Made by a program: the position numbers and the translations under genes. Source: Isoetes taiwanensis (lineage: Eukaryota > Streptophyta > Lycopodiopsida > Isoetales > Isoetaceae). From it: 64,000 nt of DNA. The stretch's first letter is position 1. Every line of letters starts with the position of its first letter. Positions 3,681 to 52,410 of the stretch are shown piece after piece. The stretch covers positions 982,436 through 1,046,435 of the forward strand of contig JAJEKV010000169.1 of assembly GCA_021234155.1 (NCBI GenBank). Reading direction: 5' to 3'. The notes beneath the pieces are model-generated. The model was not told where the DNA came from, did no database searches, and was given only the letters and a program-made list of their open reading frames with translations.

Positions 3681-4097
3681 AATAAATAAAATGAGAATAT
3701 CTATTCAATGTCTACTCAAACATAATTGTTAGCCTTATACATGTCTAATTCTAATTCATAATGTTTATTCAATGTGTGTCCAAGCGAGTCAATGTGTATG
3801 GCCTATTTGCTGCTAAAATTGTTTGTGAAATAGTTAATAATGTTGCATGCTGCATCCAGTAATCCATGCATTTTATATTCAAGTTAATTCCTCAAAAGAC
3901 TGTTTCCAAGTATCATCAAAATACATTCCCTTCTCAATTCAACATTTGGAGGTGTTTGATTTGGACCATTTTAAAGCTCATGAGACATGTTTGCATACAT
4001 GGATGCAAAACATTGGAGCCAATTCAGGTAGCTAAAAGAGGTTTAAATAATTTTGTTTGACCTGAACCTTGACAATTATAATTGATTTCTAATTCAG

Positions 4098-13065: not shown

Positions 13066-13553
13066 TGTCATGAACCTACTCGTAGGAAAATACATAGAAA
13101 ATACGCAAGAAATACAGAAGAAATAATATGAACAGGAATCAAGAATACAATAGCCCGAAGGCAAGCAGGAATACGAGACAGATGCCTAGAAGGCTCAAGA
13201 CTGGCGTTGAACCGGAATGGTTTGACAAGAAGGAGGTGCCTCCTTATATATCTATACCAACGGTCAGGATCGCGCCACTCCAATGGATGAGATCGCGCCA
13301 AGTGTCGCGCATGCATTTAGGTTCTAGAACATTCTAGAACCTTCTGGAGATAGTCCCACATATGAGGAAGACGTGAAGGAATGTCTTCAACAACTATTGG
13401 TAGCGCACTTGGCAAGGTGTGTGACTTGCAACTGGAAAGTTGCGAGTTCAAACCCTGTCTTGTGCAACTACCCTTTTGCATCCGTGTGACGACCATCTTT
13501 TGTACATAGGAGTATAATGTTCGTATGATACGAATATCCGTATGGTCGTCACA
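13066..13553 (-). repeat. Chromovirus 3' LTR
   Basis: 488 bp. It differs from the 5' copy by a missing block near 13120 (the 5' copy has about 30 extra bases) and few substitutions, so this element is younger than its copia host. It carries a TATATAAGG box in sense at 13242-13250 and the site complementary to the primer site at 13207-13218. Confidence 0.93.
13397..13470 (+). other. tRNA-like sequence inside the LTR, antisense to the element (copy 1)
   Basis: On the plus strand 'ttggtagcgcacttggc' resembles a pol III A box and 'gagttcaaaccc' a B box, spaced as in a tRNA, with a stem CTTGCAAC / GTTGCGAG between them. A complete cloverleaf with acceptor stem is not evident. It may be a tRNA-derived SINE remnant or tRNA fragment caught in the LTR. 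The other LTR has the same at about 18813-18890. Confidence 0.5.
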
Positions 13554-13760
13554 CCATCCCCCTCCTACGATGGCGACGAGTCCTCGAAGATGGGGCCAGA
13601 GTACTCAGACTTGGCTTATGCGGGTAACGTCGGTGAAACTCCGCAATTTTGTCAGGTGCATTAGTCAGATTCTCGGCAGGCTCCCAGGTTCTGTCACTTG
13701 GCGAGTAACCTTCCCAATCGACGAAGTAATACAATCATCGACGAAGAAACTTGGAGTCCA
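13549..13760 (-). pseudogene. Chromovirus chromodomain, end of polyprotein
   Basis: In sense the frame reads YFVDWEGYSPSDRTWEPAEN then LTNAPDKIAEFHRRYP. The aromatic residues and the W-E-P-A-E-N-L block are the hallmark of a chromodomain, which binds methylated histone tails and steers integration into heterochromatin. The open frame ends at 13549, five bases inside the 3' LTR, so coding sequence overlaps the LTR edge. Confidence 0.9.
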
Positions 13761-13936
13761 GAATCGCTCGAACCTCGAACTCCTCATGATCATCAATCTC
13801 GACTGGTGATGGAGGTGGAGGTACTCGATCCGGAAATGGATTCGCCATATAGGGTTCTAACAAAGACACATGAAACACTGGGTGAAGCCCGACCGATGGC
13901 GGAAGCTCCGGACGGAAGCGGCATCACCAACTTCGT

Positions 13937-14920
13937 TCAATGATCCGATAGGGACCTAAGCACCGTAGTCGAGCTTGTTACAAGGGCGAAGCTGTCGGCA
14001 AATCCCGACATAAAGAGCCAAACAAGATCACCAACCGCAAAATGAGGAGGCGCCCCGGCGATCTGATCCGCATGATGGCGATAACGTGCTTGGGCACTCG
14101 AGAAGATGGTGCTGAAGGTCATCCTGAAGCATGCGAGCTTCTCGAGCCTGTCACCGGCGGGATTGGCCGGAGTCATATCCGGGGAGCAATCAAAGACCAC
14201 CGGGATGCATGCCGAAATTAATAAAGAACGGAGTCTGGCTTGTGGAGGCATGGACAGAATTATTATAAGCAAATTTTGCCGGCCAGTAGCCAATCAACCC
14301 GGTCATCCTGGCGATAATTGATGAAGCATCGCATAAATACGCGCTCAAGGGTTTGATTAGTGCGCTCCACTGTCCATTGGTCTCGGATGATGTCCGTAAG
14401 AGAGCTTAACGTTCCACATGCAAGAGTTGCAATAGACGCTTCAAAAGCGGCAACAAATTGAGGGCGCGGTCGCGACAATGTTATCACGGTAAACCATGGA
14501 GTCGATCCACCTCTCGAAGCAAGAGAACCGCTGTGGCTTCACTAGAGATAGAAGTGTTGCAAGGAACGAAATGTGCCATCTTAGAAAAATGGTCAACAAC
14601 AACAAGGATGGCGTCATGGCCCTGGGAGGATGGAAGCTCGACAATAAAATCCACTGAAATACTCTTCCAAGGACCGGCTAGAACTGGTAAAGGCTGAAGC
14701 AGGCCATGAGGAAGATGCCTCGGAATCTTGGCTCGACAGCAGATATCACAGGATCGAATAAAAGCTTCGACAGAGCGACGAAGACCTGGCCACCAATACT
14801 CTCGACTAATAAGTTCAAAAGTCTTGGCTACTCCAAAGTGTCCGGCCAGAGGTGAATCATGGCAAGCCTGAAGAACCTGAAGCCTAGAAGCACCATCTGG
14901 CACATATAGAAGCCCATCAC
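13937..14920 (-). pseudogene. Chromovirus integrase, broken
   Basis: From about 14900 in sense: LAGHFGVAKTFELISREYWW and CDICCRAK form the HHCC zinc finger. The core follows with SVDFIVELP and VVVDHFSKMAHFVPC (first Asp and neighbourhood), then after frameshifts ERTNQTLER near 14370, carrying the catalytic Glu region. Further C-terminal sequence runs to about 13940 (FAVGDLVWL at 14020). Integrase inserts the cDNA. At least three frame breaks are visible. Confidence 0.88.
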
Positions 14921-15459
14921 GGGCAGGAGTCCATCTCGAACCTCAAAAGCGATCATAGTCCGATCCCATCTGGCGAGAGGATGATGCGGCGCCAAGTGGG
15001 AGAATACATCTTGAGCCAATGGATGGGAGGGCGAGATGCTCGAGCAGGACTCCAACAAGAAGGCAGTATCATGAGGCCTCTCGAACAAAGTGAGAGCCAT
15101 AAAAGCTGGAACCGATCGGGCCCCTAAAATAACTCCGTGATTGCTGATCATATGCGGGGATCACCTAGTTTGGGCTCAAGGTAGGAGCGTCGAGACAAGG
15201 CATCGGGCTTTCCTTGGAGGGATCCGGGGCGGTACTTGATCGAAATCAATCAAGGGATAATACTTGAGTATGCCACCGCCCTGGCGACGGTTGAGCACTT
15301 TCGAAAGCGATCGAAAATATTCGAGATTCGGTGATCCGTGTAGACTGTGACCTTATAAGGAGATCCCTCCAGAAACGCGTCTCCACTCCTCGAAAGAATC
15401 CACTATCGCCAACAACTCCTTGTCATAAATGGGATAGTTGATTTCAGAGACTGAAACTT

Positions 15460-16640
15460 TCATGAATGATAGGCGATTGGATGCAATTCATGGTCATCCC
15501 CTCTTGTGCGGGATCCCACCAAATGCAAAATCGAAGCATCTGCTTCAACAACATATGGGAAAAGGATGCATGAGCAAGAACCGGCCCGTGGTGAAAGCAT
15601 GCTTCGGGGTAACAAAAGCGATTCGCTTCCCACGATCCATTCGAATGGCACGTCCTTGGCGGAGGCGTGTCAAAGGAAGAGCAATCTCAGAATAATCCCG
15701 GATGAAACGCTTAGATAGAAATTGGCAAACCCAAGAAAACACCGAACATCTCGAGCGGATGAAGGTGTTTGCCACTCGAAACGATCTTGACCTTTTCGGG
15801 ATCCATAGAGACTCCATGCGGTGTGATGCGATAGCCAAGGAACTTTACATTATCTCATTCGAACCGGCACTTCTCAAGTTTGGCATATAATCCATGCTAC
15901 GAAGCTTTTGAAGGACACGTCGAACATGTCTTTCATGTTCTTTGAGAGTCTTAGAATAAATAAGGATATCATCCAAATAGATGATAACAAAAGTGTCTAA
16001 GAACTCTCGAAAAACATCATTGGCCATATCTTTGGAATACTTTAGGAGCATTGGTAAGTCCAAACGGCATAACTGTGTACTCAAAATGGCCATACCGAAA
16101 ATACGAAAGGCTGTTTTCCACTCATCCCCTCCCGGATCCGAATAAGATTATAGGCACCTCAAGATCAATCTTCGTAAAAGAGTGCGCACTTTGAGTCGTT
16201 CCAACAACTCGGGATCGTTAGAGGAAGCGGATACCGATTTGGCAATCGTGATTTTATTGAGGCCACGATAATCAACGACGGAACCTGCCGAACCATCCTT
16301 CTTTTTGACGAAGAAGATAGGCGCCCAGCCAGGGATCGAGAATGTCGAATGAAGCCAGTGGCTAAATTCTCTTCAATATAATCCCGCAAAACCTTCAACT
16401 CGGCGGAGATAGACCATATATCGGACCATATGGCGGCGTGGTCTCCGGCTGCAAATCAATAGGACAATCATATGGACGATGCTCTGGGAGTTTGCTGGCT
16501 TTGACTTTGTCAAAAACATCAGAGAAGTCGCCATATTTATCTGGGAGCATTGGAGCAACTTCGCTGATGCCGAAGCTAGCCGATGGGTGAACACGGATTG
16601 CAAACATCTGAACTTGGATCTTGCCTTCTAGATTTATCAA
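15460..16640 (-). pseudogene. Chromovirus reverse transcriptase and RNase H, broken
   Basis: In sense: LPEHRPYDCPIDL near 16500 (RT start), KVLRDYIEENLATGFIRHS near 16390, and FVIIYLDDILIYSKTLKEHE near 15985 with the YLDD catalytic aspartates. The following FRVANTF and VEADAS-type RNase H sequence runs to 15460. Frameshifts occur about every 250 bases. The enzyme pair would copy the RNA genome to DNA. Confidence 0.88.
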
Positions 16641-16643
16641 ACT

Positions 16644-17573
16644 TCAAGAGAAATCTTCGAGATCTGTAAACCGAGGGCATGAAGAAACCTCCACAAAAGC
16701 ATGAGCAGGAACATGAACATGAGCAGGAGCAACTGGAACAGGAACTGGATCAAGAACTGGAGCAGGAACAGGGACTGGAGCAAGAACTGGAGCAGGAACA
16801 GGGACTGGAGCAAGAACTGGAGCAGGAGCAGAAACTGGAACTGGAGCAAGAGCAGGAACTAGAGCTGGAGCTGGGACATCATCAAGAACATGATCAGAAT
16901 CTGGGGCATGAACTGGAGCAGAGGCAAGAGGCGGATCGTAACATGGAACAAGCAAGGGACGGAGTCGGGGCCCCCACATCTTCGCACGGATCGAAGTCGA
17001 TGTTGGTGTAGAAACGATGACCGCAGATGAACTGGAACTAGAGCTAGAACCAGCAAATCGAAATGATCTAGTACGCCAATCAATCTGCGGGTTATGTAGC
17101 TCGAGCCAGGGCAGACCCAAGACTATTGGCGCATGAGGGCTAGCAATGAGATTGAAGGAAATACGACAAGAAACTCCCTCGAACAAAACCTGAAGAGGCG
17201 CAGCACACGGATCGCACCGAGGAGATCTCCCGTCCATCAATCACGCCCGGCGAAGCGGGATGCTCAACCTTGCTTCTAGGGATGGCGGCGTTATCGGCAA
17301 ATGCATATCCATAAAGCAAGCATTTGCACCACAATCAAGTTGCGCCAACACTTGCAATTCTCCAACCGATTTCAATGATATAGGGATGAAGAATGCCCTG
17401 GTCGACCTTATCGATGGAATAAACATGTCAGGAAATGTGGAAGGAGTTCGAGAAAAGGCGGCCACCGACGAGAGACTCCTACTACCTGACCGCCCCCGAA
17501 GTTTTCCGGACCGATTTAGGCGCTTCTGCTGGGGCATCCACGGCGATATGGCCAGCTCCTCCTGTAGAGGCAA
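16644..17573 (-). pseudogene. Chromovirus protease region with Pro-Ala-Val-rich linker
   Basis: In sense, VLAQLDCGANACFMD near 17350 is a retropepsin active-site region with DCG in place of the usual [23 protein letters not shown] near 17110 is the typical C-terminal part. It is followed at 16680-16900 by a tandem stretch encoding repeats such as [10 protein letters not shown], placed between protease and reverse transcriptase. Such a linker is unusual. A frame break lies near 17240. Confidence 0.85.
16690..16905 (-). repeat. Minisatellite encoding Pro/Ala/Val repeats
   Basis: Plus-strand units 'gcaggaacagggactggagc' and 'aagaactgga' alternate with period near 36 bases or fractions of it. 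In the element's sense they encode alternating Pro-Val-Pro-Ala units. Length variation between copies is expected. Confidence 0.85.
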
Positions 17574-17690
17574 AGATTAGCCTCTCTCCGACGCTTCGGT
17601 GGCGCATAAGGGTCCTCGAACTGCCCGATCAATGCAGATAGGCTCGGTCGAGATCCGCTAGATTCTCTGAGATAAGGCGGGAAGGCGAAG

Positions 17691-18456
17691 CTATAGGCGC
17701 TTGTGTAAGTGGAAAGACATGACTACGTCTCTCTTGCCTACGTTCAAGAGCCGATTATCACATCGAACAGAAAATCGATGGCTTCTTCTAAACTCGGGGA
17801 TCCTCCATAGACAACAACATATCTTTGACATCCTCGTAACCCCTTCGGAAACAATCTCGAAGTGCAATATCATCCCGGCGTTATTCCATCGCAATTTGAC
17901 GAAATTTTGATGCCTATACTGAAGCTGGGTGAGAGCCTTGCCTTCAGTTGCAAAGTTTTGTGACTGCTGTCGCCTGACGATCGGTGTCTCCAAAGCATGC
18001 TTCGAAGTTTCGCAGGTGAAAGCGGCAAAATCTTGCAACTCGGGGCTCCTTTCTCCAATAAAGGAGCAAACCAACTTAGAGCTGGCCCTGTGAGAAGAGA
18101 ACCAATCACCCCACTTGTTCTTGAGCTGTGGGATATCTATGAGGATGGAGCTGAATCACAAGCCCGATCTGATTCAAAAAACCGCGGAGCTTGAACCGAG
18201 TGCCGTCAAACTTCTCTGGCAGGCTGATCTTAGGCTCTGATAGCCTCAATCCCGAGCTAGAAGCAGATTCATGTGAAGCAATACGTTCCTTAAGCTCTTT
18301 ATTGTCCAACTGCAACTGCTGGCATACTTGAACAAGCTGCTGGACCTGTTGTAATAAAGTCGGAACCTCCTCCATAGATATAAAATCACCAACTATGAGC
18401 AAAAAAAAATGTTTAGGATCAGAGCAGACAAGAACCGGTAAGGGATTCCGGTTCAA
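17691..18456 (-). pseudogene. Chromovirus Gag, broken
   Basis: In sense, after the primer site, MEEVPTLLQQVQQLVQVCQQ begins a coiled-coil-like start, followed by KISLPEKFDGTRFKLRGFLN. After a frameshift, SLLTGPALSWFAPLLEKGAP near 18100 is the capsid-like core typical of Ty3 Gag. No intact CCHC zinc knuckle is visible before the protease, so it is either lost by frameshift or absent. Confidence 0.85.
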
Positions 18457-18458
18457 AC
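18443..18458 (-). promoter_or_regulatory. Self-priming primer-binding site of the chromovirus
   Basis: Directly after the 5' LTR the sense strand reads GTTTGAACCGGAATCC, with no TGG start as a tRNA site would have. Twelve bases (TTGAACCGGAAT, sense 18456-18445) are complementary to ATTCCGGTTCAA in the LTR (perfect in the 3' LTR; one position gives a G-U pair in the 5' LTR). That LTR site lies about 25-30 bases below a TATATAAGG box, where transcription should start. This matches the self-priming design known for Tf1/sushi elements. Confidence 0.7.
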
Positions 18459-18974
18459 TGTCATGAACCTACTCGAAAACAAGGAAAATACGTAGAAAAT
18501 ACGCAAGAAATACAGAAGAAATACGCCAAGATCGGCAAAGAATCTGATATATGAACAGGAATCAAGAATACAATAGCCCGAAGGCAAGCAGGAATACGAG
18601 ACAGATGCCTAGAAGGCTCAAGACTGGCGTTGAACCAGAATGGTTAAGAAGGGAGGTGCCTCCTTATATATCTAGACCAACGGTCAGGATCGCGCCACTC
18701 CAATGGATGAGATCGCGCCAAGTGTCGCGCATGCATTTAGGTTCTAGAACATTCTAGAACCTTCTGGAGATAGTCCCACATATGAGAAAGACGTGAAGGA
18801 ATGTCTTCAACAACTATTGGTAGCGCACTTGGTAAGGGTGTGTGACTTGCAACTGGAAAGTTGCGAGTTCAAACTTTGTCTTGTGCAACTACCCCTTTGC
18901 ATCCGTGTGACGACCATCTTTTGTACATAGGAGTATAATGTTCGTATGATACGAATATCCGTATGGTCGTCACA
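18459..18974 (-). repeat. Chromovirus 5' LTR with TATA box and predicted start site
   Basis: 516 bp. In sense a TATATAAGG box lies at 18670-18662 and the likely RNA start at about 18643-18641, with the sequence ATTCTGGTTCAA able to fold onto the primer site. It also holds the antisense tRNA-like stretch at about 18813-18890. Confidence 0.92.
18813..18890 (+). other. tRNA-like sequence inside the LTR (copy 2)
   Basis: Same A-box-like and B-box-like phrases as in the other LTR ('ttggtagcgcacttgg', 'gagttcaaac'), with small differences including one extra base. Its presence in both LTRs means it was part of the element when it inserted. Confidence 0.5.
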
Positions 18975-18979
18975 CCGAC

Positions 18980-39200: not shown

Positions 39201-39269
39201 TCTAGAATGGCAAAACAATGATCTCGAAGGCATGAATCAGTTCGGATGGCTACGATGCCCTGGGAAGTT

Positions 39270-40832
39270 TGAAGGCACAGTATACGGTCCCAGGACGTAT
39301 ACTGTACTGCCCCGTCACGCGTACACGCCACTCCGACCGACGTGTACGCCAACGGATAGCCAGGTAAGTAGCCCTAGGGGCAACTTGCTAGGAGTGTTCA
39401 TATATTATTAATGTGCACATGTGCACATTAATGAGGGCACACCTTTCCATGTTGGCATATTTTGCCACCTAGCCATTAAAGGCAAGTGGGGCCTTTCTAA
39501 TTATCCCACATGCCAAATTGGGTAATTGGAAACCCTAGCCTAAATCCCATGTCTATTTAGGGTAGGAAAACCCTAGCTTGCTAGTTTTTCGTCCTTAGGG
39601 TTTTAGAGCTCGGTTTTGGCTGCCCCAGAGCCAAAACCGCCTCCCTCGGGCGCCCCTGCGAATTGCACCATCGGTTCCACAGAATTCACTTTCATTTCGG
39701 CCAGGATGGTTGAACTCAGTCGGAAGGAGCCACTCAAGGATCAGGTATTTGGTCAATTTAATAGCTTAAACCGTCTTCTAGTCATAGAATCGGTAGGTTT
39801 AGACTATTAAATTGCCCATAGCAACTATCTAGATCAGTAGATCTCGGACACTAACTAAAGAACCTAACCCTATGATTAGATCTAGTTCTTTAGTTCTTAC
39901 GTGATGTATTTGGATGATGTATCTCTGTGGAACTCCTTGTATTGGGAAGGGGGTAGAGGCCCTAAAGCTTGTAGTTGATGCTCCTAGAGTAGCCTCTCTA
40001 GCACTTGTAGATTCGCACTGCGGTACAAGAGCCACACACGGTTTGTGGGTGAAGGGGGCGGGCTGGCTAAGAAGGAGGTTCATGTTACGACTCTGAAGCG
40101 ATTCCTCCGGTGTGTAAAGCCTACAGGGGGATCATTGTGACTAGGTCCAATGGCTTACCAGTGCGGGTAAGGCATGGGCTCGACACCCCGTGAAGTGGTG
40201 TACACTTTCCGTGGGTTCATCACAGGCGGTGGCCCTCTAGTCACCTTGAGTCGGCAGATGTAGATCTCGGAGGGAGTGATCCCTACCTGCCCCATCGGGC
40301 GGGAGGATGAGACCGAGGAATAGCCCCTTCTCGGGCTATGCATCCGTGAGGCTCTGATCCAGTCCCGACACTTTTCAGCCTACTACTCGCAAAAGTGTGC
40401 CGCGGGGAGGGGCGGATGGAGTGGACAACCCTATGCCATGTTCTTATGCCAGCCAACCCCATTGCCATGAATTGCATGCGCAGCGAACTCACGGAGACCC
40501 AAGCCGTGAGTCATCCTTTGAGTCTCGAGCCTTGGGTAGGATCCCCTATGTGATGTGCTGATCTTTGTCTATGCAGATATGAGGAGGACCATCCTTGAGA
40601 TGGTCACTGAGGATGTTGATGTATGTGCTCCCGACATGTATGTTTCGCTTCCTTGACTAGGTAGGCCCGAGGGAGGCGGGGTAGAATGACACCTTCACTC
40701 TTCCCCTTTGGGACTTCGTTCACGGGTGCGATGATATGTGGAGGCCCTCAGATCGGCATGGAGCTGGTGTGGGGAAAGAACTCCTGTTTGTATACGGTGA
40801 GTGCAACCGTGTCACGAGTAGGGGGCGTCTGC
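39270..40832 (+). repeat. 5' LTR of the histone-carrying element
   Basis: Matches 50844-52410 along its length. Differences are mostly small gaps and clustered complex changes rather than plain substitutions. A perfect 26-base palindrome centred at 39419/39420 (half-site ATTAATGTGCACA) is shared with the other LTR at 50989-51014. Confidence 0.88.
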
Positions 40833-40834
40833 GG

Positions 40835-40845
40835 TGGTATCGAGC
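40835..40845 (+). promoter_or_regulatory. Primer-binding site, tRNA-Met type (one base short)
   Basis: TGGTATCGAGC follows the LTR; the usual site is TGGTATCAGAGC, so one base is missing. It fixes the 5' LTR boundary. Confidence 0.7.
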
Positions 40846-41035
40846 AATGTTCTTGGAGACCAAGAGCAAAGCAGCGACCATGTTCCCGATAGTACTAACT
40901 TGATAGGATCCTCAAGCCTCGAAAAGTGGGAAAATTTTTTCTCACCTTTGTAGTTTATGCTAAGCTAGTAACAATTAAGTGAATTGGAATTTAACAAGAT
41001 TAAAAAGAATGAGCCAAAATTTTCCAAGTGAGGTG

Positions 41036-41517
41036 GTCTCACATTTCGCCTTTGGTCGTGGAACTAAATTTTTGTTTTGAAGCGAGTATAGGCCGCGTGA
41101 GACATCGAGCCAAGAACACCAAAACATGATGAATTTGAGAAAAATAATGTGGTAAGGCTAATTCTAAGGTAGGAATCAGTTAGAATAGCATGTTTTAATT
41201 ACCTAAAAACCCTAGAAATGTATGAGATCTCACATTTCGGCGCTGGTCATAAAAACTAAACATTAGTATTGGGAACGAGGCTGTTTGAATGAGACCAATA
41301 AATAGAAAAAGTTTGAAATAAGTATAAGTTTTAGCTAAGATGATGCCTTAGCATGTTAATTCATGAGCAACTTGAGTTTTGACCTAAAATTCCCCAAGCT
41401 ATAAATAGATGTAGAACCCCTCATTTTTTTTTCGGCCCAAGCCCTAGAAATCCGCTTCTTCCCAACTTAGGGCGATCTTTCGGGCGCTTTTTATCCGGAT
41501 TGACGATCCGTGAAAGC
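41036..41517 (+). promoter_or_regulatory. Promoter module A (before the H3-like gene)
   Basis: Two copies of a ~70-base repeat (41036-41104 and 41228-41296) begin TCTCACATTTCG and end with (G)TGAGAC, with 'GCTGGTCATAAAAACTAAA' and 'TAGTATTG..GCGAGG'-type middle parts. Their cores TTTCGCC and TTTCGGCGC resemble E2F sites. A TATA box CTATAAATAG lies at 41399-41408, 118 bases before the ATG. Module B before the next gene has the same parts in the same order. Confidence 0.75.
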
Positions 41518-42774
41518 ATGGCCCGAACCAAACAGCGAAGGAAGTTGCCGCCAGGCGAAGCCACCAGCGCCACCGAGGCGGAGATCATTCGGAAGATGCT
41601 TCGTGAGAGGCTCGCGAGAGGGGGACGTTCGCCTTCGGACGAGGAGCAAGACACGTCCGATCTGATTGAGGGCTTCAACCAGCAGGCAGAGCAGGACGAG
41701 GCCACATCACCGAACTCCATGGACGAGGAGACGAGGGAGGTGTATGAAGGAATAGAGCGGGAGATCCGGCAGCAGGAACAAGCAGACCATTCAGACGCAC
41801 CCACGGAGATCCTCGAGCAGGATGAGCAAGTGACAGGTCTGGAGCCAGCGGAGGTAGCAGACCTTAGAAGGTTCATCAGAAAGTACGAGCGCCGGCAGAA
41901 GAGAAGGGAAGACAAAAAGAGGAAAAGGAAGGAAGAGGAACAAAAGGCAGCAGAAGAGAAGAAGAAAGCAAAAGGGAAGTTCGTGGCTGGCATAAGGAGA
42001 ACGAAGGACTGCCCGCCAAGGAAGAGGCCGAACCCCAACATAGTCATCAAGGAGCGGCAACCCGACGAACCCCCAAACCCCTCCGACGACTCTTCTGAGG
42101 AGGACTTCGACCCTAATGCTGCAGGTGGAAGCTCTTCCAAGCACCCAGGCGACGAGCAGGAAGTACCTGAGCAGCCGGCACCTGAGCAACCCCAGCAAGA
42201 CCAAGTGCAGAAGCCCCCTGAGTACCCGGCATGGGATAGAAAGAAGCAACCACGACCTGCCCGGGAAGCCTCACGCCACCCGGCGGGTGAAGATTTGAGA
42301 GGAAGATGAGAGAGCACGAGGCCTACATGAAGAAATGGGAGGCCTACAACAAATATTATGAAGAAAACAGGGTTAAGTTCATCGAGGGAGGGCGACCAAC
42401 GAAGCAGCAAACCTTAAGGCCGCCACCACCGAAGCCCAAGGTTCCCAAGCCGCCACCCAGGAAGAAAGCTGATAGGAAGGAGGTGGAGAGAAGAGCGTTA
42501 AGGGAGATTAGACACTTCGGTAGCAGCCGGCCTCCTAATTCCCGTGCCCCCCTTAAGCTCGGTTGGTGCGTGAAGTGATGGAGGCCTCTGAGCAGGACTT
42601 TAGAGTCACGGACGGTGGCTGGCTGGCAATGCAAGAGGCGGTTGAGGCAAAGATAGTGCAACATTTTGAAGACTCAACAGCTGCACTATCCATGCCAAGC
42701 GGGTAACCTTAATGCGACAAGACATGAGTCTTGCGACCGCGATAAGGGAGAAGCATATAGAAGCGGTTTTGTAA
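41518..42774 (+). CDS. Histone H3-like protein with long inserted tail, three 1-base frame breaks
   Basis: ATG 41518 (context agcATGGCC) gives MARTKQRRKLPPGE: residues 2-6, ARTKQ, equal the histone H3 amino terminus. About 320 charged residues follow, rich in Glu/Lys and later Pro (PPPPKPKVPKPPPRKK). Then comes a complete H3 fold: RALREIRHF (alpha-N, 42492), LVREVMEASEQDF (42563), LAMQEAVEAKIVQHFED (alpha-2), HAKRVTLMRQDMSLATAIR (42691), stop 42772. From LVRE to AIR it aligns with canonical H3 without gaps, about 28 of 62 identical by eye. Single-base losses near 42296, 42561 and 42690 break the frame; two are in C runs and could be sequencing errors. About 418 codons if restored. Expected role: chromatin packaging of element or host DNA. 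Confidence 0.85.
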
Positions 42775-42900
42775 ATAATTAAAATTTTTGTAATATAGAG
42801 CAATTTTGTGTATCTTGATGACATAAACTTGGTTAATTAGAGCAAATTAATAAGTTTTAGCTTTTATTCCAGTGGAATAGGACATTTGCAAGCCAAGAGA
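42775..42900 (+). other. H3-like gene 3' region
   Basis: AT-rich tail between the H3-like stop and promoter module B. No plant-type polyadenylation signal can be singled out with confidence. Confidence 0.4.
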
Positions 42901-42907
42901 CATGATG

Positions 42908-43480
42908 TCTCACACTTTCAGCGCTGGTCATAAAACAAAAAGTTAGTATTGAAGCGAGGCAAAGGCGTGAGACCCGCCCAAACTTGACCAAAACAGCTCC
43001 AAATTGACCAAATAAAATTCGATTCGCCTAATTTGATGAGCCCATCACCCTTACACCATTAGTTTACCCAAATTGGACACCTTTGATCGAAATGAGACCC
43101 GATGTCTCTCACATTTCGCGCTGGTCGCCAAAACAAAAGTTAGTTTTGAAGCGAGGGCAATTTGTGAGACCTCTTACCATTTCTTCACGGGACTTGTCAA
43201 AGTCACCTTCAACCCTCTTGCATAGCATCTTTTAGGTAACCTAGCCTTGTTCAAGCATCTCATATAGTCCTCAAACTCCTATTTTGACCTCGGATAAGTT
43301 AGAATTACCCAATCCTAGGAAATTTTCAAGTCATCCAAAAATTAGGGTTTCCCCCTTTTTCTATAAATAGACCCGTCACTTCTCGGATAGCACCCTACAA
43401 ATCTGCTCCTGCCCTTCTAGCCGATTTCCCAACTCCACTGGCTCTTGCAACCGTTTGTTACCCTCTTACGCAATTAATCA
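42908..43480 (+). promoter_or_regulatory. Promoter module B (before the H2A-like gene)
   Basis: Two further copies of the ~70-base repeat (42908-42974 and 43106-43171). The second contains ACATTTCGCGCTGGTC, with TTTCGCGC exactly matching an E2F consensus. A TATA box CTATAAATAG at 43361-43370 sits 120 bases before the ATG at 43481. Spacing between the paired repeats (198) nearly equals that in module A (192). Confidence 0.75.
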
Positions 43481-43850
43481 ATGGCAACCGATTTCGAGGA
43501 GATGGTACGGCGCCCGGCGCTCATCTTCGAGTGAGGCGGCGTCGACCAAATCTTCGGATCTTCGGGGAAGGAGGTAGGCGTCCAAGCAACCTTGCACGCG
43601 ACCCGGCTTATAGTAGAGTCTTGGTGAGTTCCAAGCTAGGGTAGAACCAGCTAGTGCAACTCCCCTTGTGTAGGATATTTTGTCCCTAGGCGGTCCCTGC
43701 GGCGACATTAGGCGATGTCCGAACGCCGCCAAATACCTCACAAACAAAGCGCCCGCTTTTGAGCCAATGGTCCTAAGCGTCAGCGGGGACCAAGTACTTC
43801 TCTTTCAACAACGCCACGGCAATCTTTCTTACCCACCGTGCAGAGAACAC
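43481..43850 (+). CDS. Histone H2A-like protein, probably with one short intron, frame broken
   Basis: ATG 43481 starts MATDFEEMVRRPALIFE. After a disturbed codon (TGA 43532), GGVDQIFGSSG aligns with the H2A block AGLQFPVGRVHRLLRKG. KEVGVQATLHATRLIVES matches the alpha-2 start, then a likely 50-base intron (GTGAGT 43624 to TAG 43673). DILSLGG + nine extra residues + NAAK matches EILELAGNAAR. The stretch from NAAK to MVLSVSGDQVL aligns without gaps with the H2A alpha-3 region ending LQLAIRNDEEL. In another frame LPTVQ (43829) matches LPNIQ. The colinear match across the whole fold supports H2A over H2B or H4, though identity is low. No H2B or H4 partner was found. Confidence 0.6.
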
Positions 43851-43928
43851 CGTGGGGAAACCTCCATTCCCCATGGGCGTGGACCCATTAGCCATAGTGG
43901 CGAGAACAACGGCTCCTCACCACCCGGT

Positions 43929-45270
43929 ATGAGCAGGGGCAGGAAGGGAAGGAAGAACTTCGGAAGAGCGAGGAATCAAGAAGAGGAAGACTATGTCGAG
44001 CTCGACCAGCCGGAGGAGCTGGGCGGCAAGCGAACAGGAGTGGCAAGACGAAAAAGCCCGGCGGACTCTGAGTCAGCGCCACCCCCGGGTTAGGCATCAC
44101 AAGCCTAGCTCCCATTATAGTGAAGGTGAGGAGTTTACGCTCCTAGCGACATTCAAAACCTCGGGAGTGCGGGGAAGGGAATGCAGGCACGAAGAGTTCT
44201 TTGCACCAACTCAGAAGAACGGACTTGGACGACTTCATCGTCAGGGGAGTCCGACTTCCCCCCAAGTAAGGGAAGCCGACACTTACACGGGAGAGTTTAC
44301 CTCAGGCATCCAAGCCTACAGCAATATCGAGGAGGCCGGTTATGGAGGACACAAGGATAGAGAACAAGCTACAGGCGGAGGAAGAGTTCCTTGCTCTTCG
44401 GGAACAAATGGGGATCCGCTATGCGACCTCAAACATCCTAACGGCAAGCTCGTCCGCAGCACCTCCCGGGGATAGGGACAGGCGGTCGACCTCGGGGAGG
44501 GCCGACCTTGATCGAGACTACGAGGAGCTCACCACGGTGGAGGTTGATGATTTGAAGCAGACACCTGAGGAGCTGGATACCGAGTGGCGAGGACCCGTCT
44601 CACTAATGACAGTCACTACGCTATTACCGCCACCGCTGATGGATGGAAGAATAGCGGTTATCCCATAAGTTCACCCTTCTGAGGCGAGGAAGGAGTATCG
44701 TTGCTGATTGCACTCGGATTCGCCGTAGGCGCGGTTACCCTTAACACGGTATGCAATCCTGGTGAAAGAGAGCGGTAGCACTTCGGCATCTTCGACTTAT
44801 ACCTTTACAAAGGTGGCAAGGCAAGGCAAGGATGTGGCAGACTTATACCTCCCACCGTGAGAATAGAAGATTTAGCAAGAGCATTACAGGTGGATCTCCA
44901 GCCAATGTCATAGGAACTTGGGCCATTCGGTGGGAACAGCCCAAGTGAAAAAAGTTCTGGAGGATAATCCATCTTCACAGAGCAACAACAGGAATGATTA
45001 GCGGTAGTTGCAATTTTTTTTGTATTAGTGTAATATAAAATATAAATATAATATTTCTCTTGCATGTTTTATAAATGTTTTTGTGTTCCCCAACCATGCC
45101 AACAAACATAAATAATGCAAGAAAGCAAGGAAAACTAACCATATAGATATGAACCACTTGTGTATGCAGACTAGAGGCTGGCCTTGGGAGAGCGACAAGC
45201 TGCGGGGAACTTCTGAGGAGGAGCGAGCCCGCCCAGGCCACGCCCGAAGCAAGGAACACTGCTTGAAGAA
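43929..45270 (+). pseudogene. Region between H2A-like gene and gag: basic/acidic N-terminal Gag-like frames
   Basis: ATG 43929 gives MSRGRKGRKNFGRARN followed by an acidic run and a stop at 44091. The start is reminiscent of H4/H2A tails but no histone fold follows. Further frames (44342-44668: EDTRIENKLQAEEEFLALRE, ELTTVEVDDLKQTPEELD) look like an acidic Gag leader. From 44700 to 45160 little coding is seen; AT-rich DNA at 45005-45060 may be an intron. Confidence 0.4.
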
Positions 45271-46450
45271 TTTGGACAAATGATTGAGAAGAAGAAATAT
45301 CGCAAATGAGGGCCGGACCTCGAGCGGATAAAGGCTTTGCTAGCCGCCACAGCGAGGGAAGCGAGGTTCGGTGGGTAGCAGCTCAAGCTGCCGCAAGCAT
45401 CGGCTCGGGAGAAACAGATAGAGACAAGAAGAGGAGCAAGAGAGGAAGGTCCCCAGCTCCGGACTCCCTCAGAGCTCAAGATTCAATTCAGACTCGGAGG
45501 AAGAAGAAGAAAGCGAGAACCAAGGCAAAGCGGATGGAGGCGTGAGGAAGCGCCGGGGCCGGGCGACAAAGGGACACAAGAACCTCGACTACCAGAAGAA
45601 AGTAGACTACGCATTGGGAAATGTTTGGAAGGCCAGGAAGCTTCGAGCAATTCTGGCCAAAGAGACGAGGTCGAGGCATGGGGCGAGAGGCTTGGCTTGT
45701 GAGATGGAGCGAATCACGGCAATGCCTATGGTATGAAGGATAAGGATAAAAGCGAGGGGGCAACAGCGGAACACGAAGGGAAGCGTGCGCGCATTTGGTG
45801 GAAAGGGCTATGCCAAGGCTCATGGCTTAAGCGGGGATGCTTGCGAGGTTCAAGAAGTTTGCTAAAGCCTTCAAAGCGCCATTCGTCCCAAGAGAACACA
45901 AGTCGATTATGATGCACCCGGTTCTCTACAAGGTTGCGGCAAGGCAACAAAGTCGATCTGAAATATCTGAGGAATTTATGAGGCTAAAAGGCATGTGTAT
46001 GTGCAAAGTTAGGTGAAAGCACGCGGTGGAAAGCTACATTGAAGGTCTGAATGAGGATATCCGCAAGCTTGTAAGGGCAATAAACAGCAGAAACGATGTA
46101 TCGAAGCGGAGTCAAGGCAATAAGTTTGCAAGGAAGCGGGACCCTGAGAATAAGCGGAAGAGAGGCAGCGGTGATATGTGCAAGATAAAGGCAAGGCAGC
46201 GGCGGTTTCGGCCCAGGGGACCAGCCCGGGGGGCCGGCTAGAGCCCCATATATAGTGGCAATCAAAGGGAAGGCGGGGAGAAAAGCGGTGTCTTTCAAAG
46301 ACAAGCGGGAAGGGTCAAACTACTCCAAAGCGGTCACGATCCTTACGAGGCCATGCAAGGAAAAAGCAGGGAGTGCATAGAAAAGCAGCTTTTGCTTGAG
46401 GTGTTTCCAGCCGGGCCATAGGGACATGAACTGCCCATATATGTCATGAG
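45270..46450 (+). pseudogene. Gag core and zinc knuckle, heavily frameshifted
   Basis: IEKKKYRK and basic frames at 45280-45545 lead into RQQSRSEISEEFMRLKGMC near 45945 and VESYIEGLNEDIRKLVRAIN near 46030, a typical Ty3 Gag core. A perfect CCHC knuckle CLRCFQPGHRDMNC is at 46393-46434, with a second partial one (CHECG) near 46445. Gag coats the RNA and forms the particle. Confidence 0.75.
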
Positions 46451-46589
46451 TGCGGCCTTAGCGAGTTTGGGAGATTGGGACACTTTACGGCGGCGGCGGT
46501 GAGGAGGCCAGCGACTACATTGAGGGTGAGTGTCATATCTTTGCGCTTAATAGATCTGAGCAAAAGAGAGACCCGGTATAAAGTAATTT

Positions 46590-46900
46590 CCACGATGGGA
46601 AAGGCCAAGGCCAAGTCATTTATAGTCTGATAGATTGGGGAAGTAGCCATAACTTTGCATCTCGAGAATGGTTCAAATGTTGAAGTTGAAACCATTAAAG
46701 TCAAAGCCAAGGCCCGTTGTCTTAGCAAGTGGAGGCGATAAAGGCGACGGGCGGTAAAAGAATCAACTTTGACATCGACTTGCGGGGATTAAGATCGGAT
46801 GGGGGGGCAGAGGTAATGGGCATCGGCAAATACGACTTGATAATAGGTATGGAGTACCTTGGACCAGCAGGGGGCCATTATTGATTGTGGAAGCGGAAGG
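46590..46900 (+). pseudogene. Protease region
   Basis: LIDWGSSHNFASR near 46628 corresponds to the active-site strand (usual IDSG or IDTG; Trp here by a changed codon), and GKYDLIIGMEYL near 46830 to the C-terminal strand pair. Short and broken by frameshifts. Confidence 0.6.
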
Positions 46901-47239
46901 TGACCTTCCCAACACCCGGCGGCAAGATCATTGAGATACTTGAGGTAAAAAGTTGTTCCCATCATGCAATGCATGTCTTCTAAGCAATTTGTTCAAGTGC
47001 ATCAAGAGTGAGCAAGTAGCATACATCTTCAAGCTTGAGATTAGTGAGCGGGTGGAAGGAAGCAAAGAAGACAAGATGCTCGGACAAGGCTGCCGAAGCA
47101 AATAGCTAAGTTGATCACGGAGTTCCACGATCTCTTTCGGATGAGATCAAGCGGCTCCCTCCTTATAGGAGTCGAGTGCGAGATAGCTTTTCGAGCAGGG
47201 GAACAAAGCCTACAAGCAAGGCTCCATATAGAATGACAA

Positions 47240-48450
47240 CGCGAGGAGTTGCCGGCTGAAAAGCGATTGCGAGGGGCTTTCGACCTAGGTTTCATTAGAC
47301 CTAGTGTCTCGCCCGTTTGGGCGCCCATTCTTTTTGTCAAGAAGAAGGATGGATCTTTGAGGATGTGCATAGACTATAGGCGGTTGAATAAGCACACCAT
47401 TAAGAACAAGTATGCGCTTCAAGATCGGGCGACTTGATGGATCAGCTTCAAGGAGCAAAGATCTTCTCAAAATCGACTTAAAGGTCGGGTTATCATCGAA
47501 TACGGATAAAGGAGGAGGATATCCACAAGACCGCCTTTAGGGCCGGTATGGGCATTATGAATTCACGGTGATGCCTTTACGGCTTATCAAATGCCCCCAT
47601 AGCGTTCATGAGGCTCATGAGCGATATCTTGAGGAGTTCACGGACACCTTTGTGATTGTTTTCTTTGATGACATTTTGGTGTATAGCGGATCCCTTGAAA
47701 ACGCGTGCAACACTTAAGAAGGGTGCTAGAGAAGTTGAAGAGGCACCGGTTATGCGCCAAGTTGTCGAAGTGCCGCCCATAGCGAGAAGGTGGAATACCT
47801 TGGTCATGTGATCTCGGCGAAGGCATCTCGGCGGACCCGCCAAGATTGAAGCGGTGATTCGATGGCGGCGCCGAAGAATACCGCGAGGTCAGAAGTTTTT
47901 CTCGGTCTAGCGGGGTACTCTGAGGAAGTTCGTGAAGAACTTTGCTAAGATAACAGCCGGATTAACCGGACGACAAAGGCGAGAGTGAAAAGATTGGGTA
48001 GAGCATTGGCACAGAAAGCCCAAAGGGGTTTGAATTGTTGAAGCTCGGCGGCGACCCTATCTTGACCTTGCGGACCGGGAGAAAGATAAACTTGCAACAG
48101 CAGATCGCGAGTAAAGATAGCTACTGGTGCGGTGCTTATGCAAGAAAAGCGTGTGGTAGCCTATGATTCGAGAGAAAGATGAGCGGCGCCGAGGCAGCTA
48201 CCCAGCGCCACGATCGGGAATTGCTTGCGGTTGTCGGGGCATTAAGAATATGGAGGCACTATCTCTTGGGAAGGAAGTTCCAATTGGATACCGACCATGA
48301 GCCTCCAATATGTATTCATAACCACACCTTAATCGAGGCGGCGGAGATGGATGGAGTTCCTCGAGGAATATGACTTTGATATAGTCTACAAGCGGGGAAG
48401 CTCAATGTGGTAGCAGAATCTTTCAAGGCATCCCACGACAACTAGAGTGC
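47240..48450 (+). pseudogene. Reverse transcriptase and RNase H, heavily frameshifted
   Basis: Clean block at 47249-47437: [20 protein letters not shown] then [16 protein letters not shown]. Then YGHYEFTVMP near 47552, FVIVFFDDILVYSGS near 47650 (catalytic FDD), AKLSK, VEYLGHVIS near 47792, and the region around 47880-47950 that reads RSFLGLAGYY-like once gaps are allowed. RNase H ends with HDRELLAVVGALRIWRHYLLG near 48213 and TDHEP near 48293. Breaks occur every 30-60 bases. Confidence 0.85.
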
Positions 48451-48639
48451 ATTGCAATGCAATTTCGGCGCTCTCGGCGACTTTGGTAGGAAGATTGAAG
48501 AGTCCTTGCCAGCGGATGTGGATTTCGGGGAAGTATGGGCAAAGCCTCTCTAAGGAGGCTAGAACGGATAAAAGTGGGAGGCCTTCAAGCATTATAAGAA
48601 GGAAGGCAACTGTTATACCATAAGAACAAGTTGTGCGTG

Positions 48640-49570
48640 CACGAATCATCGGGTGTAAGGAAGTTGATCCTCCATGACCGCGCTGCAGCCCAATAGGCTG
48701 GCCATGCGGGATTCATGAAAACATATTTCAAAGTCTTGGCGGCTATTATTGGCATTAGGAATGAAGAAGCAAATAGCTTCGCTACATCAAGGAATGTCGG
48801 CTATGCCCGTGAGGCGAAGGCGGAGGCGGCAATTCGGGGGCATTAGAGCCACTAAGCGGTGCCAGCGCTAAGTGGGAGGTAATCGGCATGGATTTCATCA
48901 CGGGACTCCCAAAACGGCGAGAGGCAAGGATGCCTTGATGGTAGTGTTTGGTCGACAAGTTGTCAAAAGATGGCACATTTTGTGCCTTGCGGGACCCAGT
49001 CTGACTATGGATCTGACAAAGCTCTTCACCAAAGAGATCTTCAGGGCTTCATGGCATGCCAAGGGAGATTATCTCCGAGCCGGGGATCGAAGTTCATGAG
49101 TGCCTTTTGGCAAGACCTCTTTCGCGACGATTCGGACCAAGCTATCCATGAGCACGGCGTATCATCCTCAGACGGATGGCGAGACGGAGGCGGACCAGCG
49201 GGATCTTAGAAGACATGCTCTACGAAACTATATGCGGAATAAGCAAAGTATGTGGGAAGAATTTATTCACTTGGTGGAGTTTGCATACAATAGCACCAAG
49301 CGGGAATCATCCCAAAATGTCGCCATTTATGATCAATTATGGCTATCGTGCCTAACTCGGACACTTGGCACAACCCGTGTCAAAGTAGAAGTTTCGCGGC
49401 AGATGTTGGCGATATCGCGGCAGCTTCGTGGAAGAAGTTCGAGGTTATCTGCTAGCAGCAAGAAGTCGTCGAGAAGAGCATCGCCGACAAGCATCGTCAG
49501 TCGAGGAGAGTTCAAAGTTGGAGATGATGTATGGCTCAAGATAAAGGTGAAGCGGTGGCTTCGGGTTGGC
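48640..49570 (+). pseudogene. Integrase, frameshifted
   Basis: After a zinc-finger region (LILHD, GHAGFMKTYFK near 48700), MDFITGLPK at 48889 and VVFG near 48946 carry the first Asp region. RDRGSKFMS-like sequence at 49085 and STAYHPQTDGETE near 49150 follow, with the Glu. MRNKQSMWEEFIHLVEFAYN near 49230 and RREFKVGDDVWLKI near 49505 complete a typical Ty3 integrase. Confidence 0.85.
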
Positions 49571-49573
49571 AAT

Positions 49574-49935
49574 TGCAAGCTTGCTCCAAAGGTGGGCTGG
49601 ACCCTTGAGAATAATCAAGAGAGTAGGTAATCAATCCTACAAGTTGGAATTGCCGGCACACCTAAAGATTCATAAGGTCTTCCGTGAGTTTGTTGAAGAA
49701 GCATACTCCAAATCGGGCGAAGTCTTGGACACTCTCAACGTTGTTGGAAATGGCGGAGGAAGGCATTTTGGAAATAGTTCGAAATGATTCTTGATAAAGC
49801 TTTCAAAGAAGACAAGGAGGTCGGAATTCCTCAATACTTGGTCAAAGTGGAAACACTTGCGGTGGAAAACAGCGGCGTGGGTACTTAAGAAGGATTTAGT
49901 AAAAGCGGTACCCACGGTTTATGGAGCAATGGGGC
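49574..49935 (+). pseudogene. C-terminal linker and chromodomain of the histone-carrying element
   Basis: RWAGPLRIIKRVGNQSYKLE (49590) and LPAHLKIHKVF (49650) are the GPY/F module. ILEIVPKMILDKAFKED and, in a shifted frame, RRSEFLNTWSKWKHLRW followed by WVLKKDLVKA resemble a chromodomain (E-F-L-x-x-W-x-K-W ... W-V-x-x-x-D-L). This places the element among chromoviruses. Combined with element-encoded histones this implies a double link to chromatin. Confidence 0.75.
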
Positions 49936-50830
49936 GGCAAGGTCATCTCAGAAGAAATCGGCTCGGGCATGTCGATTTGTGTAGGTTAATTCTTGTATAG
50001 ATTAATCTCGCATGCAACCTATGCTTGGTATGGGTGCATGCGTTATTACCGATGATGAGACCACTACGGTGATCTCTAGGGCGTGGTGTAATGTCAATGT
50101 AGGCATGGCCGCGTTTCCGCTTGGGCGAGTGGAAGGTAGATTAGAAAGTCTACTTACGTCCCGCGGAAGGAGGCGACCTCGAAGAAAAGGAGGTCATTAA
50201 GGAATGCATTGATAGGGAAAGCACCTTTAGCCCCATATATGCTTTGATAGGAGGAATCCATCCTTCCGCCCCCATGAGAAGGATATCCTCCTGTTGGGCA
50301 ACTAGAGGTGTAGGCATGGCGGCATATAGGCATATAAATTTGTCTCCCCGGCCATTATGGAAGATTCATCCTCTTCCTGGTAGGAGATTAGCCATGCATT
50401 CATGTAGATAGGTGGGGTTGGTCACCATATAACCAAAATTTATTAAATAATTAAAAGCGGTACTAGCGTAGTGTCGACTGCCTGTGAGCCGATGAAGCTC
50501 GAGGAGGACAAGGAGGTCGAGCTCTGAAGACTTGCAACACAAGTTTTGTTGGAATGTGTTGCAAGGAATGAAGTACCTCGGACAATAATTATAGATATGA
50601 AATGTTGAAATTTTGTCTAACTTAAGATAGTGAATACCTTGTTTAATGATGTTGTGAATTGTTAAGTATTCCATAGTATGATGGCGTGATAATGTTTTAA
50701 AAAAAATATTACCTTAAGGGTAATCTGGTAAATGTATAACTATTATATTGTATGCATCCGTTGATTGCAGTTGCAGATTAGGAAGATCCCAAGGTGGGGA
50801 GACCCCGATCTTTGCGGGCGACATCATTTC
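49936..50830 (+). other. 3' non-coding region of the histone-carrying element
   Basis: Between the end of pol and the polypurine tract. Short frames only. A phrase AAFPLGRVEGRL near 50115 superficially recalls H2A but the context does not fit. Two 'aaggtggggaga' phrases (50791, 50831) precede the LTR. Confidence 0.5.
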
Positions 50831-50843
50831 AAGGTGGGGAGAA
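50831..50843 (+). promoter_or_regulatory. Polypurine tract of the histone-carrying element
   Basis: AAGGTGGGGAGAA directly before TGTGGCG, the start of the 3' LTR; a near copy lies 40 bases upstream. Confidence 0.8.
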
Positions 50844-52410
50844 TGTGGCGTTCCGGCCACGATTATCACGGTCGGGGCGTATCTTTATCTTTGCCAAATC
50901 AGCGTACCGCTCCTCCGACCGGCGATATGCGTAGCGGATAGCCGGTTAAGTAGCCCTAGGGGCAACTTGCTAGGAGTGTTCATATATTATTAATGTGCAC
51001 ATGTGCACATTAATGAGAACACACCTTTCCATGTTGGCATATTTTGCCACCTAGCCATTAAAGGCAAGTGGGGCCTTTCTAATTATCCCACATGCCAAAT
51101 TGGGTAATTGGAAACCCTAGCCTAAACCCCATGTCTATTTAGGGTAGGAAAACCCTAGCTTGCTAGTTTTTAGATCCTTAGGGTTTTAGAGCTCGTTTTG
51201 GCTGCCCGGGGAGCCAAAAAAGCCTCCCGAGCAGCATGGCCGAATTGCACCATCGGTTTCCCAGAATTGGCTCATTTCATTTCGGAGGGATGGTTGAACT
51301 TCAGGTCGGGAGGAGCCACTCAAGGATCAGGTATTTGGTCAATTTAATAGCTTAAAGCCGTCTTCTAGTCATAGAATCGGTAGGTTTAGACTATTAAATT
51401 GCCCCATAAACTATCTAGATCGTAGATCTGGGACACTAACTAAAGAACCTAACCCTATGATTAGATCTAGTTCTTTGGTTCTTACGTGATAATATTTGGA
51501 TGATGTATCTCTGTGAACTCCTTGTATTGGGAAGGGGGTAGAGGCCCTAAAGCTTGTAGTTGATGCTCCTAGAGTAGCCTCTCTAGCTGCTTGTAGATTA
51601 TTTTGTGTGCAAGAGCCACACACAGTTTGTGGGTGAAGGGGCGGGCGGCTAAGAAGGAGGTTCATGTTCGACTCTGAGCGATTCCTCGGTGTGTAAAGCC
51701 TCTAGGGGATCATTGTGACTAGGTCAATGGCTTACCAGCGAGTGCGGGTAAGGCATGGGCTCGACACGTGAAGTGGTGTACACTTTCGGTGGGTTGGTCA
51801 GTCTGAGGCGGTGGCCCTCTAGTCACCTTGAGGTCGGCATGTAGATCTCGGAGGGAGTGATCCCTACACGCCCCCCCGGAGGCGGGAGGATGAGACCGAG
51901 GGAATAGCCCCCCGGCTATGCATCCGTGAGGAGCTACTGATCGAGTCCAGAGCACTTTTCAGCCTACTACGCAAAGTGTTTGGGGGGAGGCGGATGGAGT
52001 GGACAACCCTATGCCATGTTCTTATGCCGGCCAACCCCATTGCCATGAATTGCATGCGCAACAAACTCACGGAGACCCAAGCCGTCGGTCATCCTTTGAG
52101 TCCCGAGGCCTTGGGTAGGATCCCTATATGTGATGTCTTGATCTTTGTCTATCTTGAGATATGAGGAGGACCATCCTTGAGATGGTCCGCGGGATGTTGA
52201 TGTATGTGCCTCTTGACATGTATGTTTACGCTTCATGACTAGGTAGGCCAGGGAGGAGCGGGGTAGAATGACACCTTCACTCTTCCCAGCGGGACTTCTG
52301 TGCAGATGCGATGATATGTGGAGAGCCTGTATCGGCATGGAGCTGGTGTGGGGAAGAACTCTGTTTGTATCACGGTGAGTGCCGGTATGCGAGTAGGGAG
52401 CGTCATCTGT
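50844..52410 (+). repeat. 3' LTR of the histone-carrying element
   Basis: About 1567 bases, aligned with 39270-40832. Many single-base and few-base gaps relative to the other LTR, densest at 51600-52400. Confidence 0.88.

Follow-up and report, generated by a model that had tools for sequence, protein, structure and literature searches.

A large group of LTR retrotransposons in the genome of the lycophyte Isoetes taiwanensis carries its own histone H3 gene. These elements are chromovirus-like members of Ty3/gypsy, and the gene (ORF1) lies between the primer binding site (PBS) and gag, encoding a protein in which a large element-specific region comes first, with an H3 fold fused to its end. The fold is conserved by purifying selection across diverged families. 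ORF1 was noticed in a stretch of 64,000 nucleotides, here called the window, in which an earlier note made from the sequence had described a Ty3/gypsy element with an H3-like gene. That description was borne out, including the place of the gene in the window, and it holds well beyond it, as many copies and several diverged families share the gene.

In the window, the element extends from approximately 39261 to 52407 (Table 1). Its ends are worn, and its LTRs (39315-40829 versus 50899-52404: 89% identity, K2P 0.114), PBS and polypurine tract (PPT) are still recognisable; the PBS is of a type which we take to be that of the initiator tRNA-Met. A tblastn search with the gag-pol frames of sister elements gave matches in two stretches, 45420-47419 and 48786-49171. 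The pol pieces scanned against Pfam gave no match, and the homology of this part rests on tblastn. A short motif (about TCTCACATTTCGCGCTGGTC, then AAAAC..) can be seen by eye near 41036, 41229, 42907 and 43106, i.e., on both sides of ORF1.

Table 1. Features of the H3-carrying element in the window (positions are those of the window).
Feature	Position	Strand	Remarks
5' LTR	39261..40834	+	start degenerate; ends placed by alignment to the L028 element (L077/L078)
Primer binding site	40835..40846	+	TGGTATCGAGC.. in the window; TGGTATCAGAGC in sister copies
ORF1, piece 1	41518..42309	+	MARTKQ start, charged insert; stop 42307-42309
ORF1, piece 2	42291..42578	+	frame 3; the insert ends and the H3 fold begins here (ALREIRHF, 42495-42527)
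H3 fold, middle part	42542..42682	+	frame 2; 77% identity to L028
H3 fold, last part	42676..42774	+	frame 1, IHAKRVT ... stop; 42676-42747 with 83% identity to L028
ORF2	43481..45000	+	broken; homologue of the B-family ORF2; right limit approximate
gag-pol remnants	45420..49171	+	several frames; tblastn with sister gag-pol frames
Chromodomain, likely place	49788..49997	+	by eye; decayed; Pfam match in L076, none here
Polypurine tract	50831..50843	+	AAGGTGGGGAGAA
3' LTR	50844..52407	+	TGTGGCG...GCGTCA

ORF1 has the limits first given for it, from an ATG at 41518 (MARTKQ...) to a stop at 42774. Within them, frame 1 runs to the stop at 42307-42309, frame 3 is open at 42291-42578, and the H3 fold is split over three frames: 42495-42527 (frame 3), 42542-42682 (frame 2) and 42676-42747 (frame 1). 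The linked fold pieces reach an E value of 1.1e-23 against L028, an unbroken sister copy, and of 1.9e-9 against host H3, while the reversed window, used as a control, matches neither. A profile search for which the note had called gives a divided result: L028 matches Pfam Histone at 2.1e-28, but the window pieces 41518-42306 and 42291-42575 have individually no Pfam match. The window copy is dead, decayed and frameshifted. Regarding the claim of a protein ending in a complete H3 fold, the fold is real and C-terminal; nevertheless, in the window it is divergent and frameshifted, other families are nearly canonical, and the description must be corrected in that the fold is fused behind the large element-specific region. 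The assembly is described as based on Nanopore reads with Illumina polishing (PMC8566536), and small indels in repeats may partly be assembly errors.

The family of the window (family A) was delimited by a DNA search of the same genome with positions 41440-42790 as query, in which 40 of the 1708 first-look candidates were scored, window included. The other 39, further copies of the kind that the note had proposed to look for, match at 85-94% identity over nearly the full query length, except for L024 (1-1175 of 1351), and the 40 places are spread over many scaffolds. Among the 20 family A loci that were read, the window being one of them, the start codon is in place in all 20, MARTK is found in 17/20 and the exact MARTKQTARK, with which H3 starts, in 8/20. 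The whole fold is in one frame in four of these loci (L016, L019, L028 and L033). L028 keeps ORF1 open over its whole length of 403 residues, from MARTKQTARK through approximately 300 other residues to a gapless H3 fold; its best PDB match is H3.3 (2.6e-26). Family A folds are identical to host H3 at 51-52 of 89 gapless positions (52/89 in L028), with which the initial by-eye count of about 28 of 62 agrees. The L028 gene lies downstream of its own PBS and within its own LTRs (L077 and L078, 92.0% identity, target duplication TTGTT) and, in consequence, it is an unbroken ORF1 inside a complete LTR pair.

The genome (1,658,258,908 bases in 1110 contigs) was also searched with Pfam Histone. The best 150 of 8705 first-look candidates were scored and all 150 were above the cut-off; the top 15 rows score as normal H3, and the eight that were read are all standard 136-residue H3 genes. 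From the remaining rows of the best 150, a sampling that favours conserved folds, 46 loci (L009-L014 and L035-L074) were drawn and read, and in all 46 the H3 fold stands behind a non-standard tail. According to their N-terminus, these B loci can be differentiated into: (i) B1, with METPKQ or MEEVKQ; (ii) B2, with MPRFKL; (iii) B3, with MANTKS; and (iv) B4, with MARTKG. A single frame leads from an N-terminal Met through the fold in 28/46 (394-459 residues), although two of these 28 copies (L010 and L057) are partly garbled. The B fold is identical to host H3 at 72-78 of 89 gapless positions, and three B copies match Pfam Histone at 5e-42, 2.6e-41 and 4.1e-43. Six B members have in common a conserved N-terminal domain of ~210 residues with fixed columns such as RIPYP; for this N-terminal domain there is no significant match in Pfam, the best E value in PDB is 0.31, and none of 28 pattern matches in IMG/VR is a confirmed relative.

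The motif C-A/T-I-H-A-K-R-V-T has 2312 exact matches in the genome (1163 + 1149), a figure that counts one motif and not genes, versus 0 for the reversed control. As a sample independent of the fold score, the first seven motif places in genome order were taken, and around six of them ~500 bases were read, from which they were assigned to types. No standard H3 gene was among the seven. L031 belongs to family A, L080 is B3-like, two are B-like copies in decay (L082 and L084), and of L083 barely more is left than the motif, with the host-like letters TNLC. The other two, L079 and L081, represent a further divergent H3-like type (type C), with the sequence REIKHFQQ..LLIRKAPFERLMREVM...

Paired LTRs, PBS, PPT and target duplications of 5-6 bp are present in the three elements examined for them: (i) L014/L075 (LTRs 95.4% identical, K2P 0.043, target duplication GTGACC); (ii) L010/L076 (93.8%, K2P 0.058, AAAGT); and (iii) L028. 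In the two B elements, LTRs start with TGTGAC and end with GTCACA, followed by TGGTATCAGAGC. The order in L014 is LTR, PBS, ORF1 with the histone (ATG near 3802), ORF2, ORF3 and a gag-pol frame from 7629. Pfam recognises gag/capsid and then protease in L014 and L011, RVT_1 in L010, and RT_RNaseH plus Integrase_H2C2 in its continuation L076; in the gag-pol frame of L014, no RT match was obtained between protease and integrase. A chromodomain at the end of pol (Chromo PF00385, E 4.5e-9) was found in one sister element only, in the L076 piece. With their LTRs and gag-pol, the elements differ from an H3-carrying hAT transposon, which would have terminal inverted repeats and a hAT transposase.

ORF2 is open in L011 (3058-4596, minus strand, 513 aa) and in L012 (3286-4752, minus strand, 489 aa), and has no Pfam family and no significant relative in PDB. 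The ORF2 of the window family (L029 frame) and that of B are similar with an hhalign probability of 94.9 and an E value of 4.6e-8, both from shallow alignments; since ORF2 is homologous between them, the arrangement is common to both groups. The by-eye idea that the C-terminus of ORF2 could be a second histone (a partner of the H4 or H2A kind) was discarded, as hhalign against single typed histones gave probabilities of at most 0.25% and PDB no match. ORF3 (L011:2345-3070, minus strand; L014:6843-7337, plus strand) contains a WDYWNMTPHQAF-type stretch and matches no family at significance.

Selection was assessed by Nei-Gojobori comparisons over the 89 fold codons. Between B families, synonymous sites of the fold are near saturation (pS 0.70-0.99) at a dN of 0.06-0.16, and versus host H3 the values are pS 0.83-1.00 and dN 0.10-0.16; family A versus B or host gives dN 0.38-0.47 with pS saturated, and in both groups dN is lowered because the B loci come from the best Pfam scores and the A folds were chosen for their open frame. 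Fold omega is 0.012-0.036 in the nine B pairs with computable dS (seven within-family, two between families), and 0.009 between two host H3 genes. In the region before the fold of the same proteins, dN between B families is 0.54-0.77, and omega is ~0.08-0.16 in six within-family pairs versus 0.30 and 0.32 for the two between-family B pairs that could be measured. Synonymous and nonsynonymous differences in the fold number 17:0 (L063/L064), 20:0 (L065/L073), 6:0, 6:0, 4:0 and 0:0 in six within-family B pairs, and 1:0, 4:0, 3:0, 13:2, 12:2 and 15:2 (the latter for L028/L033) in six family A pairs. Near-saturated synonymous sites together with low dN and omega indicate that ORF1 is a selected gene of the element and not cargo.

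R49, R69, R72, R83, C110, H113, K115, R116, T118, D123, L126 and R129, which we take to be DNA anchors and H3-H3' contacts, are kept in all 46 B loci and in the four family A folds. Family A is changed at K56, R63 (P), L65, Q68, K79, F84 and K122, and in B the last two residues of the fold are variable. Position 90 is L throughout and position 87 is H in 12 B loci, F in 34 and E in family A, H87/L90 being presumably the plant H3.3 pair. The standard H3 tail directly before the fold is absent in both groups: family A has its insert between MARTKQTARK and the fold, and the B loci keep approximately ten residues before the fold (HR[YF][RK]PGTV or near). Neither ARTK nor ARKS precedes the fold in 41 of the 46 B frames (18/46 lack the N-terminal Met); ARTK is kept in two B loci (B4) and in L028, and ARKS occurs in three B3 loci, 60-67 residues before the fold. 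STGGK is found before the fold in 14/46 B loci, but 113-859 of 1000 shuffles score as high in the 14 copies tested, and homology of the inner tail is hence not claimed.

The note had put forward three hypothetical roles for the protein, namely packaging of the element's cDNA, marking of its chromatin and competition with host H3. The reading that we prefer, tentatively and with a probability just short of even, is that of a working gene of the chromovirus-like Ty3/gypsy lineage whose product acts in host chromatin. The protein has its H3 fold behind an element-specific N-terminal region of ~300-390 residues, which substitutes for the normal tail. Pairing with host H4 and entry into nucleosomes would be the simplest reading of the conserved contact residues, and the domain of the element could in this way reach chromatin, with the element's own chromatin as the most likely place. 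In plants, H3K9 methylation keeps such elements quiet, and transposon silencing acts through H3 tails. With the tail replaced, or standing at the far end of the insert (A and B4), and an element domain instead, silencing directed by the tail might be disturbed through an altered or decoy tail; tethering would follow from the same arrangement. Against the preferred reading stand the tail words retained by family A, B4 and the three B3 loci, the changed residues of family A and the variable fold end in B, the partly garbled copies L010 and L057, and the drawing of the B loci from the best Pfam scores.

Tethering to chromatin is less probable, although we take it seriously: the H3 fold would serve only as an anchor while the N-terminal domain, perhaps with ORF2 or ORF3, docks Gag or the integration complex, which would be kept in the nucleus or guided in its choice of integration sites. 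Besides its size, the N-terminal region shows conservation of its own (RIPYP columns; omega ~0.08-0.16 within families), ORF2 is common to A and B, and the chromodomain of a sister element makes chromatin targeting a habit of the lineage. Nevertheless, a short histone-binding motif could anchor as well, and a whole H3 fold under near-histone constraint is left unexplained; besides, no partner is known, the N-terminal domain has no notable Pfam or PDB match, and its constraint is much weaker between families (omega 0.30 and 0.32). That the ORF1 protein coats the cDNA of the element, in the particle or in the preintegration complex, is very unlikely. The gene precedes gag in one and the same element and several DNA viruses are described as encoding histones (PMC9145170), but H3 needs a partner for wrapping DNA, and no histone other than H3 was found; the C-terminus of ORF2 has no histone similarity (at most 0.25%). 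Even harder to believe is the passive capture of a host H3 retrocopy, copied without function as in fungal hAT elements. Transposons carrying H3 are on record (PMC6710886), broken copies are numerous here, that of the window among them, and the whole fold is in one frame in only 4/20 of family A; yet this reading is already contradicted by purifying selection between families near synonymous saturation, by the 17:0 and 20:0 within families, and by the same gene place in diverged families.

Family A might also descend from CENH3 and act at centromeres, a reading that we consider unlikely. RHFQ, LLIPxAPF, T-x-EALLA and VTLMR of family A also occur in one or other plant CENH3, and a maximum-likelihood tree groups family A with CENH3 (UFBoot 95), the CENH3 sequences having been typed from recall, the host's own not among them. 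However, support falls to 47 once type C is added, the AU test does not reject a grouping of family A with B (p 0.25; 0.28 with type C), and type C is an H3-like intermediate, with LLIRKAPF, i.e., H3-like residues where A has CENH3-like ones. Furthermore, loop 1 of family A is of H3 length, not the longer CENH3 loop, and the 40 places that were scored are scattered over many scaffolds. A CENH3 origin of family A may, in any case, be called favoured by the tree, not established. A broader proposal, in which the clade builds its own chromatin, each family exchanging the H3 in the nucleosomes of its DNA for an element H3 whose private tail evades or redirects silencing, and in which the histone of the window family comes from CENH3 and is of a centromere type, seems to us unlikely.

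Searches of open PubMed Central papers brought up no LTR retrotransposon encoding a histone, and neither of the two Isoetes genome papers uses the word "histone" in its main text (PMC8566536; PMC10541799). The nearest precedent found is the H3 carried by hAT transposons of Dothideomycetes (PMC6710886), likewise an H3-like sequence in a mobile element with hundreds of copies; that element, however, is a DNA transposon with inverted repeats, and no fused domain appears in the available description. In P. fijiensis, 90% of the H3-like sequences are reported as truncated and all as inactivated by RIP, and P. tritici-repentis is credited with tens of potentially active copies (PMC6710886). Single histones of viruses (bracovirus H4, xenomavirus H3 and others) are also core histones encoded by a parasite, in which the fold retains high identity and the N-terminal tail is extended and divergent, and bracovirus H4 is described as joining host nucleosomes; in contrast to the present case, these are DNA viruses and not retroelements, and the xenomavirus H3 tail is longer by 35 residues versus ~300-390 here (PMC9145170).

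As regards gene content, the aORFs (additional ORFs) described in plant LTR retrotransposons (PMC7264820) and an ORF for a 2-ODD RNA demethylase in Ty3/Gypsy elements of orchids (PMC9289625) are likewise sense ORFs beyond gag-pol and, like ORF1, are described as retained through the diversification of LTR families. The aORFs mostly stand between pol and the 3' LTR (PMC7264820; PMC9289625), whereas ORF1 lies upstream of gag, and PMC7264820 does not contain the word "histone". Chromoviruses of fungi and non-seed plants have the same Ty3/gypsy domain order and a chromodomain at the end of pol, as in L010/L076; Selaginella SM-Tcn1 is credited with gag and pol alone, some elements have, according to a figure legend, further ORFs whose function is unknown, and the available descriptions include no histone gene (PMC2864245; PMC12786077). 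From these nearest cases, the capture of H3 by transposons is known, and a selected H3 fusion gene belonging permanently to a retrotransposon lineage did not turn up in the papers searched.

The results suggest elements that make a chromatin protein of their own. If the preferred reading is true, elements with a selected H3 of their own, its N-terminal domain being private, would be countering silencing directly, and the question of whether a transposon can supply its own nucleosome becomes testable. The families would also be a natural experiment on how much replacement of the H3 tail is tolerated under strong constraint on the fold. For the annotation of lycophyte genomes they are a warning, as many H3-like loci belong to transposons.

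The window contains a second Ty3/gypsy element, of ~5.9 kb on the minus strand (13088-18976), with RT and integrase similarity; its LTRs are presumably the paired repeats at 13088-13555 and 18508-18976 (94.5%). It has no H3 match and, hence, the histone is not carried by every gypsy element here. This second element is seemingly nested inside another repeat pair (10046-10644/21673-22265, 95.8%).
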